Assembly: GCA_029717555.1 (NCBI GenBank)
Contig: JAMDHS010000004.1
Span: forward strand, 248,001 to 312,000
DNA: 64,000 bases
Direction: 5' to 3'
Source of the DNA: Peribolospora baueri
Taxonomy: Eukaryota; Basidiomycota; Peribolosporomycetes; Peribolosporales; Peribolosporaceae
In this document: positions 14,802-23,478 of the stretch, piece by piece
How the letters are laid out: every line of letters begins with the position of its first letter
How positions within the stretch are numbered: position 1 is the stretch's first letter
Program-made: the position numbers and the translations under genes
The notes under the pieces: model-generated
The model's input: the letters and a program-made list of their open reading frames with translations, nothing else
The model's database searches: none
What the model was told of the DNA's origin: nothing

Positions 14802-17800
14802 ATGGTGCGTGCCCTATCCCGCAGCGTCTGCTCGGGCCACCGAGTTATCGTCCTCGCCCAATGGCACGCCCTTCTCAATCTCGACGGCGGTCAAGCACAC
14901 GGAGCGGCCGGTCATCGCACCTCAATTTCCCCATCATGCCGCTCTTTCGATGGAGCGATCCCCACCCCGCGTGGACATACTATGGGTGCGTACTCCACCC
15001 TAGCTGCAGCTTCGTCTTCTAGGAAAGCGAAGCTGTGGAAGGGCACTCCGCCTCTTTCCGCGTGGTCACTCCGTTGCGAAACGACGACGGCCTTCTACGC
15101 TGGAGCGGCCGCTCCACACCTCACGGACGAGCGGGACCCGCAGAGCGACTCGCCCCTTTCCATCAGTCCGCACATGTCTCTCCGACCCTACCAGGAGGAA
15201 TGCATCGTTGAATGTATCTCCTCCATCGCGGCGGGCCACACCCGCATCGGCGTCTCGTCCCCAACCGGCTCAGGCAAGACGACCATGTTCACCCATCTCA
15301 TTCACCTTCTTCCACCTCTCCCTCCGGCTACGCGCTTCTCTGCTCCCGCCACGCGCGCTCTGATCATCGTCAATTCGGTCGAACTCGCCTTGCAGGCGGC
15401 CAAGGCCATGACCGTAGCCTACCCGGACAAGTGGGTTGAGATCGAGCAGGGCGCCAAGTACGTCGCCAGCGGGTTGGCCGACGTGACCGTTGCCACATAC
15501 CAGACGTTGCTGAGTGGGAACAGGCTGGACAAATTCGACCCGAGAGCGTTCAAAGTCGTCGTCGTGGACGAGGCGCACCACGCCGCCGCACCCAGTTATC
15601 TTCGGCTTCTAAGTTATTTCGATCCCAGGGTCGGTTCGAAGCGACCGAAGATGGCGGAAGGGCAAGAGGAAGATGAAGACGCAACGGGTGTTGACGAGGC
15701 GGAGGCTACTGCAAGGGAGGACGCCTTTTTGGCGACGTCGGCGAACGACTCGAAACGGGAGGCCGAATCCACCCCTCCGCCGACGCAAAAGGAGAGGCAC
15801 GTTCCTATCGTCGGTTTCTCGGCAACTTTCAGCCGACACGACGGCCTGGCGCTTGGCACTGTCTTTGACAGGATTGTCTTTCACAGGGATTTTTTAGATA
15901 TGATTCGAGAGAAATGGTGAGGCGGAGTGGATTCGTGTGACCATCGCCTCCCTTCGTCTTCCTAGTGATGTCATACTGATCAACGGTTGCTATTATGGAT
16001 CCCTCGTTCGGACACCGCCGTAACAGGCTCTGTCCAGTCCGCTTCACTTCAGTAAAAGCACAAGTTGATTTGGCGGCGGTGGAGATTTCGCGCGCGTCGG
16101 GCGACTTTAAGACTTCGTCGCTCGCTTCCGTCATCAACACTCCGGCCATCAATCGCCTTGTCGTCAAGGCCTGGCTCGAGAAGGCTTGGAACCCGTCCAA
16201 GGAGTCCACGTCCTCGTCCACCTTTTTGGAACCCGGATACCGGCGTCTGGGTGATGGACACGTAGACGTGGAGAAAAAAGGGGACGTGCCTGCGCCGACG
16301 ATGGCGGCGCGTCCACAGCGCTCGACGACGCTCGTTTTCTGCGTGGACGTTGCGCACGTCGAATCGCTCACTGACGAATTTCGAAGGACTGGCATCGACG
16401 CGAGATTCGTGTACTCCGGTACGCCGGCGAAGGACCGCGCGGTGTTGATGAAAGACTTTCGACAGGGGAAGTTCCCGGTGCTCGTCAACTGCTGTGAGTA
16501 GTGGAGAGAGGCAGAGATTTCCTGAAACTTCTTCTTGACTCGGGTTCGTCTCGACCGCCAATCCGAGGTCGCTCTGATCTGACCGTCATCCGCTCTCCTC
16601 TGTTCTCAGCGATCCTCACAGAAGGGGCAGACGTGCCGTCCATAGACTGCGTCCTGCTCGCCCGTCCCACGCGGTCGCGCAACCTCTTTTCTCAAATGAT
16701 CGGCAGAGGCATGCGTCTGTCACCATCCACGGGCAAACAGGACTGTATGGTCCTCGACCTCGTGGGCAATATAGAGAGGGGCGTCGTTTGCACGCCTACG
16801 CTGTTCGGGCTTAGCGTGGAGGAGGAGATTGAAGGCGAGTCGAGCGGCGTTTTACGAGCATTGAAGGCAGGACCGGTCTGTCCTGACCTGAGATCCAGCT
16901 TTTTTTTTCCCGTTTTGTTGTTCCCTTCAGAGGAGACCGTTGACTCTCTCACCGCCCGAGCGGAAAAGGAGCGTCTCGCTCGAGAGGCCTCTGCGTCCAA
17001 CGACGAGGAAGGCTCGGGGGAAAAGCGTCCTCCGTTCGACATTGCGGACCCTTCCAAGGTCTTCTTCATCGACTACGCCGACCCGGAAGCGGTTACCGCC
17101 GCGTTCGGAAGCAAGGGCAGTGGCGTCGTGGAGACGATGAGTCGGAACGCGTGGGTGAACTGTGGAGGGGACGTGTACGTACTCGAATGCAGTCGAAAGG
17201 GATACATTCGGGTACAGAGGGGCGGAGAGAATGACGGTGCCCGTGAGTGGGGCGCTTTCGTTGGTCTGTCCGTCGACGCGTCATGCGCTCTGACCGTCGT
17301 TTTTCTTCTACTGGCGCTCTCCATGTGGAAATGCAGCGTGGATAGCCTACTTTGTCCCGGCGATGCCTTCACCCACCGAGGCGGACTATGCGGTGGCAGA
17401 GGCGAACCCGCGCTCCCGTCGGGCCACCTATCCCTACCGCCGTCGCCAGAACGTTCTCCAAGCGGAGGAGCTGGCAGCGGCGATCCGGGGTGCGGACACG
17501 TACGCGACGACGCGCGTGTTGTCAGGTGCCCAGGCTGGGTACTTGAGCCGATGGGCGAAATGGAGGGCACAGCCTGCGAGCGAGAAGCAGCGGGAGCTGG
17601 TGGAGAAGAGGTTAGGCCTCAAGAAGAGCGGGTCGCCCCGGGGGTCTTCTAGGAAGGATGCGGAGGAGGAGGAGGAGAGAGAAAGAGAAGAAGGAGGTGG
17701 GACGCTGGGAGAGATGACAAAAGGTCAAGCGACCAACATCCTCACTCGTCTCTCGCACGGCTTGAAAGGGAGGATGGCAAAGATGGAGAAGGAGTCGAGG

Positions 17801-18324: not shown

Positions 18325-19650
18325 TCAGAGCTCAAGTGCGACGAGAAGGAGGTGAGGAGCGTGAACAAAGGCCGAGGTGGTCACGACGTGCCCGCCGACG
18401 TAGAGGAGAGAGTGAATGAGTTGGGCTGCGGAAGACGAGCAAGGGAATGTAATGCGCGCCGTGGGTCTGGGTGAGCAGGTGCATCGATGGAGACAAAGTG
18501 AAAAAGACAGAAAAGGCAGCACTCACCGAGGTCGGGATGGGACTTGTCCAGACAAATGACCACATTATCGCAATGGAGCTGCTCATCAGCAACGTCCAAC
18601 AGATTCACTACGCTCCCGCGCAAATCCTCGAGAGCGGGTGGGCGCGGCTTGACATAGAAGGACCTTGATCCGTCGGCGCCAAAGCCGGAAACGCTCGATT
18701 CGATCATCACGCCCTCCCATTGGTGTTCCATCGCTTCGACACCGACGACGTGTCCGTCCACCACCACCGTCCCATCAGCGCAAATGACTACGTGCGCATC
18801 CGTCCGTTCTCCAACGCCCGTGTCGCGAGGGAAGATCTCCTTGGCGAATCCGGTGGCGAGAGCGGAAGGCGGGCCTTCAAGACGGAAGGCGGGCAGGGGT
18901 GCATGGTCCGCCTCGGGCGTTTCGGGCGGCGTCATGGGAGCCTGCGAAGCGAGAATGCGCTCTACGATCGCCGCGGCCGAGAGCGCGATCGTCCCGTCGT
19001 CGACGCTGGCCGGAGCAGGAAGGGAGAGGTGATTAGGAGCCGACATCGACATCGACGTCGCAGCAGCGGCGGTCGAGGCCGAGCTGACATGGTCGGCGAC
19101 GGCGGTTGTGGTGGGCGTGGTGGGAGGAGTGGGCGGGAAGGGAGTGAGTGAACCGTCGTGGCCGTCGGCGTCGTTGTCGTCGATAGCCTTGTTGGAAAGT
19201 AGGGGGTATGAAATAGAGGCCTCGGGGGCCTCGACAGCGCCTCTCTGCCTCTCACGCAGGTCGAGACGACCTCCCGGGATATCGGGAGGCATTTTTGCTT
19301 TATCGACGCTAAAAGCGATGCTGCACAGGGTTGAACGAAGGCGAGCTGTGAGCGGAAGGCGGGCGACAAAGGAAGGGAGACGTCGGTCACTCACCCGTCC
19401 CACCGCGCCAGACGTAGCGAAAGATTGGAAGTCGCCGGCCGAGGCTCCAGCGGCCTGGCCAACGACTGCCCCGAGCGCAGAGAGCTGCCCCTTCATGCCA
19501 ACGGCTGCGCCAAGGCCGGCGCTGAAAGGGAGAGAGAAGGGAGGGAGAAGAGCAAGGGTCAATGACGGCGTGCACGGCAAGGGGACATGGCAAAAGCACT
19601 CACGCGGGGGAGATACTGGAGACATGCTTGGAATTGGATTTGGAATTCAT
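18325..19650 (-). CDS. OAZ1: Ornithine decarboxylase antizyme, apparent +1 frameshift
   Basis: Antizyme binds ornithine decarboxylase and targets it for degradation, closing the polyamine feedback loop. Exons 19650-19604, 19521-19395, 19320-18527 and 18425-18325. ORF1 starts MNSKSNSKHVSSISP and, after exon 2 (phase 0 at its end), reads CAT CGC TTT TAG at 19320-19309: 61 codons and a stop. The +1 frame from AGC at 19310 is open for 294 residues. It contains MPPDIPGGR, matching the IPGG segment just after the shift site in animal antizymes, and the antizyme core: SRSFYVKPRP, LLDVADEQL, DNVVICLDKS, LIHSLLYVGGHVV. The decoded product would be about 355 residues. If intron 2 is kept, the ORF2 frame is reached without a shift. 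Confidence 0.85.
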
Positions 19651-20985
19651 TGCTACGGCTTGTACAGCTTGGCGGTGTTGAGAAGAGATGTGATGAGAGC
19701 GGCTACTGGAGAAGAAAGCGGGGGATAGAGAGCGAGTATGGGAGTGGGCAGTGGTGGAAGATGGACGGATGGATGGATGGCGGAAGCCCCCGGCGCCAGT
19801 GCTTGCCGCAGACGCCCGGTCGCGCGTGGCGGGTGCCCGCGTATGCCCGCTTATGCGCTATCCCCGTCTCACCGGCTACGCCCGTCTATGTCCGGCGCTC
19901 TGTCTCTGACGGCATCCTAGACGTGGGTGGCCTACTCTGCTCTGTGTGCCCTCCGTCAGCTTGCCGGCCAGCTGCAAAAGGCAGGTCGCAGATGACGACG
20001 TCGGGCGACGGGGAGAAGGCATGGGCATGGCTGGGTCACATATACGTATCACAAGCCACAGCACATCGCGTCGCTCCCTCCGCTTGGGGCAGCCTTGCTA
20101 TGGCCGAGGAAGAGCAGAGCCGCCCGGCGGCCGTCTTACTACACGTGCGTCCTGCATCCGCCTCGCCTCCGCCCCGCCCCGCCCTGCCTCTGCTTCTGCC
20201 TGTGTCATTGCCTCCGCCTCCGCCTCACTATGCCTCGCCGTGCACCCCGGCTCGGCTCCACGTGCAGGCGCTCGATAGGCCGATGGGACGGACTAGTGCC
20301 GTTTTTTTTTCTTTTTTTTTCTGCATGGGCGCTCGCCGCGTCGGTTCGCCCCCGCTAGCGAGGAGGCTAGGAAAAGGTACGGCCGGCGGCGTATGGAATG
20401 AGCCTGAGAGCCCACGACGGGTCTGTCTTCCTGTCTGTGTGCGTGTGAGGGTGTGTATGTGTGTTTGAGGGTGTGACGATGACGGCGACGGACGTCTGCT
20501 TACAAGCGAGACAGGCGGACGACACGGATGGGCGGCTAGCGCGCAGGGACGGATGAAGAGGAAGAGGGCGACGAGGAGTGGCTGCCCGGCGGAGACGCAG
20601 ACAGGCGCAGACAGCCAGCCACATACGTCGAACGCATACGTGTACGTATGTAGCGCGCTCGATATTGGACGACGAATGGTCCCAAGCGCATGCGCCCGCC
20701 GTGCCTAAGAACCATTCCCGGCGCCGCCCAGCTGGTCAGCATCTTATAACTCCTTCCCCCACCGCCCTACGTCGTCGTCGCCGCATTCAAGAAGCAGCGA
20801 CTCCACTCGACACCACCACTCCCCCGTCTTTCTTTTCCCTTCACCCCTCTGCCTTCGCGCCCGCCCTCTCCTCCTCTCCTCCTTCGCGCCCGCTCCCCTT
20901 CTCTCCCTCTTTTCCCCTCTCTCTTCCTCCGAGTAGAGCAGAGAAGCAAGAAAAGATCAGATAAGAAAAGAAAAAGCAAACCACC
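19651..20985. other. Divergent intergenic region antizyme/MFS transporter
   Basis: About 1.3 kb holding both promoters. A GGAT-type repeat (GGATGGATGGATGG) lies near 19762-19778. A poly(T) block is at 20301-20320, with GTGTGT-rich DNA near 20430-20470. A long CT-rich tract at about 20815-20940 precedes the transporter and ends in an A-rich CAAACCACC context at its ATG. Open frames here are compositional. Confidence 0.5.
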
Positions 20986-23478
20986 ATGGCCGCGCCCAAG
21001 GAAGATACCACGCCCGTCACCGAGCTCTCCAAGGCCAAGAGCCCCGGTGCCGGCGCCGACAACGAGAAGGGCGGCGCCGTTGACTCCGCCTCCCTGGCCG
21101 TCGAGAAGAGGCGCGCAGACGCCGAGGGTGTGTCTTCGGCCTACGAAAAGAAGGTTTATCTCGTTAATAAGGTCATCTCCGAGGACATTGGCATGGGCAA
21201 GGTGAGTCGCTTGGCTGGTCGGTCCGTCGGTGCGCATGGTCGCTCGGCTGACCTTGTCGTCGTCGTGACCAATCTTGCCCCGTCTCCGTATATGCTCTCC
21301 ACCCGGTCTCCGTATATGCTCTCCGCCGCCCACGCACCAGTTCCAATGGGAGCTCTTCGCCCTCTCCGGCTTTGGATGGTTCGTCGACAACGTGAGTTCC
21401 TCGTCCCCGCCTCACTTGTCGTCGTTAGGCGTCCCTCACTTCGCTCACACCAAGCTGACGTACGTATATGCCCACTCATTCCCGTCGCTCCCCAGGTTTG
21501 GCTCCAGGGTGTGGCCATCGTGCTCCCTCAGGTCCAGAAAGAGTTCAAGCCCGAACACGTCGAATACATGACCCTCGCCCTCTACTCCGGCCTCATCTGC
21601 GGCGCAGCCACGTGGGGCATCCTAGCAGACATCGTCGGCCGTCGCCTCTCCTTCAACATGACCCTCTTCCTCGCTGGCGTATTCGGCATCGCCGCCGGTG
21701 GCGCACCCAACTTTGTCGCCTTGGGCGGTCTCCTCGCCGCCCTCGGCTTTGGTGTCGGAGGAAACTTGGTAGGTGCATGCCAGATGTGCTTACGCTGCCT
21801 TTTTTTCTCGCTCATCTTTCTCGTTTCCTCCCAATCGTGCCCACCTTACTCGTCCCGTCAGCCCGTCGACGGCGCCCTCTTCCTCGAATTCATCCCCGGC
21901 GCCAGCCAGTTCCTCCTCACCTTCCTCAGCGTCTTCTGGTCCTTGGGACAGCGTGAGTCCGCCCTCGTCAACTCCATCCGATGGTCTGCTCCCAGGCCTC
22001 ACCCCGTACCTTGATCCCTTCCCATTCACACTCAGTTTTCGCTTCCCTCATCGCCTGGGCTTTCATCTCCAACTACTCGTGCGACCCGGACAACGCCTTG
22101 CCCGCCTCGGCGCCCTGCCCTCGTTCCACCAACATGGGTTGGCGGTACACCTACTTCTGCCTCGGCAGCATCACCTTCATCATGTTCATCCTCCGCTTCT
22201 TTGTCTTCCGCCTCCCCGAGTCGCCGAAGTACCTCATCAGCAAGGGCAGGGACGCAGAGGCGGTGGAGGTGCTCAAGGAAGTGGCCAGGAGGAACAACAT
22301 CGAGCTCAACACCATCTCCGTGGAGTCGCTTCGTGCCGCCGCCGGGGAGGACGTCGACCCGCTCGACGACGATCACGCCCGTCCTGCCGTCTCTGAGAAA
22401 GCCAACATGGGCAGCGTTCAGATGAACCTGGCCAACGTCAGTGAGTACCGCCGGTGCCTCTCCCTGAGAGGACCGTCTGCATCGCATGTTTATTTACTCA
22501 CTCTCCCCGAACGCACGTAGAGCGCACTCTGTCCAAGTTCGACCTGTCGCACGTCAAGCCGCTGTTCGCGACGCCCAAGCTGGCGTGGAACTCGTTCGTC
22601 ATCATCCTCTTGTGGGGCATGATCGGCCTTGCCTACCCGCTCTTCAACGCCTTCATCACCCTTTATCTCTCCCACAAAGGTACCAACACCGGCTACGCGA
22701 CCGTGTACGACACCTTCAAGAACTACACCATCATCTCCGTCTGCGGCGTCCCCGGTAGCTTCATCGCCGCCTGGCTCGTCGAGCTTCCTAGGTCAGGCAG
22801 GCGTGGCGCCATGGCAATCAGCACGCTGTTGACGGTGAGTCGAGCCGGACGAGAGAGGATGAGGAAAGTGCTGAACGGGCGCTGAGCCTGCTCCCCTTTT
22901 GACCGACCTATCTCCTCCCAGGGCGTCTTCCTTTACGCCTTCATCTACTCCAAGACGGCCGCGCAGGTGCTGGCGTTCAGCTGCGTCACCGCTCTTACCG
23001 AAAACGCCATGTACGGCGTGCTGTGTGAGTCGTCATTTCCATCGTCTCTTTATTATGGTATCCGGCTCGCTGCTGTTGCGTCCGTCCTGGCCACCTCGTG
23101 CTCATGTTTCGACACCGTCCCCTCGTTCAGACGGATACACTCCCGAGGCGTGGCCCGCTCCCGTACGTGGCACGGGTGACGGCCTTGCCTCGTCCTTCAA
23201 CCGCATCACTGGCATTCGTGAGTGCATCGCGATCGCTTCCGTGCTGTTTGTGACATGTCGGACCACCTGACCTCGTCCAACGCTCCATCGGTCCTCCTTC
23301 CGATACCGGCGTATTTTCCCTCTCCCCTCCCGCAGTGGCGCCGGGTATCAAGATCGTCCTTGCCAAGAACCCCGCCCAAGTGAACACGCCGCTCTTCGTC
23401 GCCGCTTCGCTCTTCGTCGCCTCCGCTGTCTTGATGTGCATGTTGCGCATCGAGACGCAGGGCAGGTCTGCTTTGTGA
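20986..23478 (+). CDS. MFS transporter, sugar-porter/SV2-like
   Basis: Membrane carrier of the major facilitator superfamily, 560 residues in nine exons: 20986-21201, 21341-21391, 21496-21768, 21862-21952, 22036-22440, 22521-22834, 22922-23024, 23131-23217 and 23336-23478. A hydrophilic cytosolic N-terminus of about 60 residues precedes FQWELFALSGFGWFVDNVW (TM1). The MFS signature GILADIVGRR links TM2 and TM3. A large loop follows TM6 (PESPKYLISKGRDAEAVEVL), a pattern shared with SV2/SVOP-like and phosphate/sugar porters; GVFLYAFIYSKTAAQVLAF is a late helix. The last exon ends after one more helix with RIETQGRSAL. The substrate is unknown. Intron 1 contains a 24-bp tandem duplication (21282-21324). 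Confidence 0.9.

Follow-up and report, generated by a model that had tools for sequence, protein, structure and literature searches.

The window (the whole stretch of 64,000 nucleotides analysed here) carries a gene for an ornithine decarboxylase (ODC) antizyme on its minus strand at 19650-18325, laid out by the read-out and the splice model in four exons (Table 1). Judged from the sequence, the antizyme is very probably made by polyamine-stimulated +1 ribosomal frameshifting at UUU-UAG, after three ordinary introns have been removed. The gene, its two frames, the site, the elements downstream of the site and an ODC gene elsewhere in the genome can all be read directly in the DNA.

Antizyme gene and product

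The gene is an ordinary ODC antizyme gene, and binding of its product to ODC is predicted. PF02100, which has a curated cut-off of 24.2 bits, matches both antizyme frames scored above that value: the unspliced frame at 28.6 bits and ORF2 minus intron 3 at 45.5 bits. Intron 3 is supported by this rise in score upon its removal. Four solved antizyme chains resemble the ORF2 product (E 0.0001 to 0.00092) within residues 217-277 of its 294. The preliminary description had the conserved domain continuing in the +1 frame from AGC at 19310, with PPDIPGGR downstream, and the read-out bears out both. In animal antizymes, ORF2 starts with a PGGR-like sequence.

Table 1. Features of the antizyme gene (positions in the window)
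Feature	Position	Strand	Basis
Exon 1, ORF1 start (AUG at 19650)	19604..19650	-	read-out, splice model
Intron 1, 82 nt, GTGAGT...TTTCAG	19522..19603	-	splice model
Exon 2, ORF1 frame	19395..19521	-	splice model, codon bias
Intron 2, 74 nt, GTGAGT...CTCAC...GCAG	19321..19394	-	splice model
CAU CGC UUU UAG, ORF1 end and proposed shift site (UUU 19314-19312, UAG 19311-19309)	19309..19320	-	
AAAU abutting stem 1	19291..19294	-	sequence, published basidiomycete pattern
Stem-loop 1, 8 bp, 6-nt loop	19269..19290	-	fold
Stem-loop 2, adjoining stem-loop 1, 7-nt loop	19238..19268	-	53- and 58-nt folds
Exon 3, most of ORF2 (+1 frame from 19310)	18527..19320	-	splice model, codon bias
Intron 3, 101 nt	18426..18526	-	splice model, domain score
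Exon 4, ORF2 end, stop UGA	18325..18425	-	splice model

In the spliced model, ORF1 comprises 61 codons and ORF2 294 codons in the +1 frame, so that a +1 shift on UUU would yield an antizyme of 355 residues. The sizes compare with 66 residues for the ORF1 product and 333 for the full product of the Ganoderma lucidum antizyme GlAZ, whose site is written TTTGA (available part of PMC9604110). Codon bias, trained on 1849 codons of fatty acid synthase, actin and ODC, agrees with the two frames of the model. In exon 2 the value for the ORF1 frame is -0.015 bits per codon, with -0.734 and -0.866 for the other two; in exon 3 the ORF2 frame has -0.048 and the others have -0.814 and -0.89.

In the 22.1-Mb genome PF02100 matches once, namely at this gene, and the antizyme protein, used as a query against its own genome, returns only pieces of the same locus. 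ODC is also represented by a single match (C77:123551-127234), the antizyme and ODC counts being lower bounds where repeats and large families are concerned. Relatives of a 255-residue piece of ORF2 were found neither among 194 pattern stretches in prokaryote genomes nor among 12 stretches in viral contigs. The antizyme signals mark the fungus as probably a basidiomycete; its fatty acid synthase and ammonia-lyase matches to solved structures single out no class, and a primer sequence for large-subunit rRNA has 0 matches in the genome.

Shift site and flanking signals

Once spliced, ORF1 ends CGG CAU CGC UUU UAG C; the read-out agrees with the earlier placement of CAU CGC UUU UAG at 19320-19309. 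According to PMC4505036, 34 Agaricomycetes and one Dacrymycete shift at UUU-UGA, and the context in Coprinopsis cinerea includes CGU at codon -2 and a codon -4 that ends in G. The present gene resembles the antizymes of these two classes, as described there, in its UUU_U, in a CGN codon at -2 (CGC), in the G closing codon -4 (CGG) and in its short ORF1, as well as in AAAU abutting two putative adjacent hairpins some 19 nt downstream. It differs from them in the stop, which is UAG where theirs is UGA. Codon -3 is CAU, whereas module A of mushrooms has UGG (a position deduced from the wording of PMC4505036, available in part). The Arg codon at -2 is supportive but not required, since some basidiomycetes outside the Agaricomycetes have UGG at this codon (PMC4505036, available part).

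The preliminary description had considered a UAG after a Phe codon unusual. The Phe codon, however, is normal in the group, and only the UAG is uncommon relative to UGA; a less common stop on the expected recoding site is a small variation of a well-known mechanism. Across 153 aligned antizymes, a single base of the frameshift site is universal, namely the T that opens the ORF1 stop (2008; PMC2375905, available part), which suggests that antizyme stops other than UGA are already known. A natural UUU-UAG antizyme was not found in the accessible parts of PMC5009743, PMC4505036, PMC2375905, PMC9604110, PMC9841425 and PMC4759687. The 2007 NAR survey of antizyme shift sites may list UUU-UAG, and the site is not claimed to be the first of its kind.

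Animal antizymes, too, are encoded in two ORFs and shift by +1 where ORF1 ends, with UCC-UGA as the majority site (PMC5009743, available part), and differ from the present gene in shift codon, stop codon and stimulators. According to the available text of the same review, from 2016, regulatory readthrough replaces frameshifting in no known antizyme. GlAZ has a YYYSTTFSGG peptide, and the introduction of PMC9604110, a paper available in part, gives UGA as the antizyme ORF1 stop. By eye, no peptide of this type is evident upstream of the site, where codons -15 to -5 read FQSFATSGAVG. Nascent-peptide similarity is confined to Agaricomycetes and Dacrymycetes in the available text of PMC4505036. 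The same text describes AAAU and the 3' structure in several antizymes of Ustilaginomycotina and of Pucciniomycotina, and not in Tremellomycetes; by this description, such members of the two former groups are like the present gene in its AAAU and putative structure, and the two groups show no peptide similarity near the shift site.

The ORF1 and ORF2 frames overlap by 107 nt, so a shift elsewhere is formally possible; it is the comparison with the signals described in the available part of PMC4505036 that favours UUU as the shift codon. The earlier proposal of +1 recoding on UUU-UAG is thus well supported, through its match to published basidiomycete antizyme signals. The pattern CGYTTTTRR-N12-16-AAATG, defined partly after the site was seen, has a single match genome-wide, the antizyme shift site. 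Its reversed control matches twice, so that one or two chance matches are expected in the genome, but hardly inside the antizyme gene.

The basidiomycete 3' structure, which begins 19 nt downstream, consists of two adjacent stem-loops, the first directly preceded by AAAU and the second with a conserved loop of 7 nt (PMC4505036, available part). In the present gene, AAAU occupies nt 15-18 after UAG, and stem 1 begins at nt 19 after the stop (nt 22 after UUU). Both the AAAU and the 19-nt spacing are therefore found, with the counting in the available text of PMC4505036 uncertain by 1-3 nt. Adjacent stems with a 7-nt loop 2 appear in the 53- and 58-nt folds, and the 73-nt fold has a different stem 2. 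The 58-nt hairpin region has a z of -3.75, with none of 200 dinucleotide shuffles folding as well; for the 73-nt fold, z is -2.10 and 6 of 200 shuffles are as good. The hairpin energy is no more than suggestive when set against synonymous recodings, which fold equally well or better in 132 of 2000 cases (18 codons recoded) or 182 of 2000 (first 7 codons). Among 277 ORF2 windows, the hairpin site ranks second, the first being its own neighbour. Two Rfam matches, both below cut-off, were judged to be chance.

Splicing of intron 2

Splice signals were compared in 11 introns of the antizyme, actin and ODC genes, delimited by hand through frame continuity; one more actin intron, which starts GTAGGT and whose end is not fixed, is omitted. 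The coordinates of intron 2 in the preliminary description (19394-19321, 74 nt, GTGAGT...GCAG) check. Seven of the 11 introns, intron 2 among them, have the donor GTGAGT, and the branch-like CTCAC is present in 5 of 11, that is, in intron 2 and four others. The first ten bases of intron 2 are identical to those of actin intron 3. The introns end in CAG (8), TAG (2) or AAG (1). GTGAGT occurs 50 times in the 64-kb window, whereas 20 first-order random sequences contain it 30.4 times on average. One intron of the ODC gene, 111 nt long, has no stop in the coding frame, which is also the case for antizyme introns 2 and 3.

If intron 2 is kept, the AUG at 19650 and the ORF2 stop bound one uninterrupted frame, which encodes 380 residues. 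The earlier statement that a retained transcript would give full-length antizyme without a shift holds in this respect, the 380 codons forming a single open frame. One reading, for which a frame open from 19646 to 18381 speaks, is that there is no intron 2 in practice: 19394-19321 would be coding, and the antizyme would be read in one frame with no frameshift. Low codon bias is by itself compatible with coding, since 42 of 238 windows of 24 codons in exon 3 score as low as intron 2. However, the GTGAGT donor, the ten bases common to actin intron 3 and the recurrent CTCAC all argue for an intron, and the retained frame is the lowest of the three in intron 2 (-0.315 bits per codon against -0.144 and -0.242), where these values let no frame stand out as coding. 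In addition, splicing restores UUU_U as known from the literature, with a spacing close to the one described there. That intron 2 is coding is extremely improbable. For gene-finding pipelines, the one-frame model that keeps intron 2 looks complete and hides the frameshift.

The preliminary description also held that two regulatory routes may coexist. Spliced mRNA would then need the +1 shift, and a regulated fraction keeping intron 2 would give the 380-residue antizyme without polyamine control at that point. On paper this is possible: intron 2 is open and, at 74 nt (2 mod 3), makes the retained form one continuous frame; reading of the spliced unshifted mRNA would end 782 nt ahead of an exon junction, and that of the retained form would not. 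Positive support is nevertheless lacking, as intron 2 shows no coding bias and open frames are common. The absence of stops in the ORF2 frame of intron 2, correctly described earlier, is not remarkable, given that 13 of the 33 intron-frames in the 11 introns are open; intron 3 is likewise open in the ORF2 frame. Given the base composition of introns 1 and 3, the chance of an open stretch of 24 codons is ~67%; retained intron 1 stops at once. One intron in three is expected to have a length of 2 mod 3. Frames would be joined by chance in about one in five to one in eight cases, so the joining is not evidence for a second route, and regulated retention alongside frameshifting is very unlikely.

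The acceptor of intron 2 is the other point at which splicing could differ from the model. GCAG is the weakest of the 11 acceptors, with a score of 4.5 on a small matrix built from the other ten introns, which themselves score 6.2-14.1 on this, their own matrix. The UUUUAG of the shift site (19314-19309) lies 12 nt downstream of GCAG and is itself acceptor-like. The same small matrix gives 8.0 for TTTTAG (last base 19309) and 9.5 for CACAG (last base 19346); paired with the same donor, CACAG reaches 19.0, TTTTAG 17.5 and GCAG 14.0. Use of TTTTAG would remove exactly CAUCGCUUUUAG, after which ORF1 would end CGG CGU CGA UAA, UUU-UAG would be lost and any shift would have to occur on CGA-UAA. Beyond its higher scores, alone and paired, this acceptor has in its favour that TAG ends 2 of the 11 introns. 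Yet acceptor scanning takes the nearest AG that lies far enough from the branch sequence, and for CTCAC this is GCAG. Moreover, only 11 nt, counting from the base after CGA_U, would separate CGA-UAA from the hairpins, and the match of CGC UUU U to published sites would be chance. GCAG is probably used, since only its product carries the conserved-looking shift site, and it is hardly credible that TTTTAG serves instead.

Around intron 2, 39 donor/acceptor pairs were scored, of which 6 place ORF1 and ORF2 in one frame; the highest score among these six, 9.9, belongs to a pair with a non-consensus donor, and the proposed pair reaches 14.0. The top pair (19.0, a 49-nt intron ending in CACAG at 19346) was rejected because its sole CTNAY-type branch sequence overlaps the acceptor and because it enters the third frame, where the open stretch has no Pfam match. 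A splicing switch placed on top of the recoding switch is highly unlikely. In such a switch, with the UAG also serving as the second of two tandem 3' splice sites, GCAG would lead to polyamine-regulated frameshifting, UUUUAG to loss of the site and of any antizyme made from UUU-UAG, and retention to antizyme without a shift, the UAG being kept as an acceptor.

Proposed mechanism and neighbouring frames

For the frameshifting favoured here, splicing, the slip itself, its polyamine dependence and the roles of the stimulators are inferred as follows. Introns 1-3 would be spliced out, and ribosomes would reach UUU while UAG occupies the A site. At this stop many of them would terminate, and some would slip by +1, the Phe tRNA re-pairing perfectly as it moves from UUU to the overlapping UUU. 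AGC and the remainder of ORF2 would then be read to give the full antizyme, which would bind ODC. The candidate stimulators are CGC before UUU on the 5' side and, on the 3' side, AAAU with the two adjacent hairpins. Unshifted mRNA could be a target of nonsense-mediated decay, since its ORF1 stop precedes the intron 3 junction by 782 nt.

If expressed in this manner, the gene would provide a natural UUU-UAG antizyme site and would indicate that the UUU_U slip and the basidiomycete stimulators tolerate a stop other than UGA. It would also offer a natural test of the respective shares of stop codon and shift codon in setting the level of shifting.

Antisense to the antizyme gene, the plus strand has a stop-free frame of 231 codons (19033-19728) without a Pfam match, which is probably a composition effect. 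On either side of the gene, plus-strand frames show likeness to a helicase C-terminal domain (16498-17652, 16.8 bits) and to a major facilitator transporter (20965-22014, 21.6 bits), both below cut-off. ARAGORN finds no tRNA in the window. Elsewhere in the genome, the fungal fatty acid synthase beta helical domain is found at two loci, C123:414901-415965 and C106:131306-132565; one lies on the window's contig within an open frame of 2357 codons, and the other is in three pieces.
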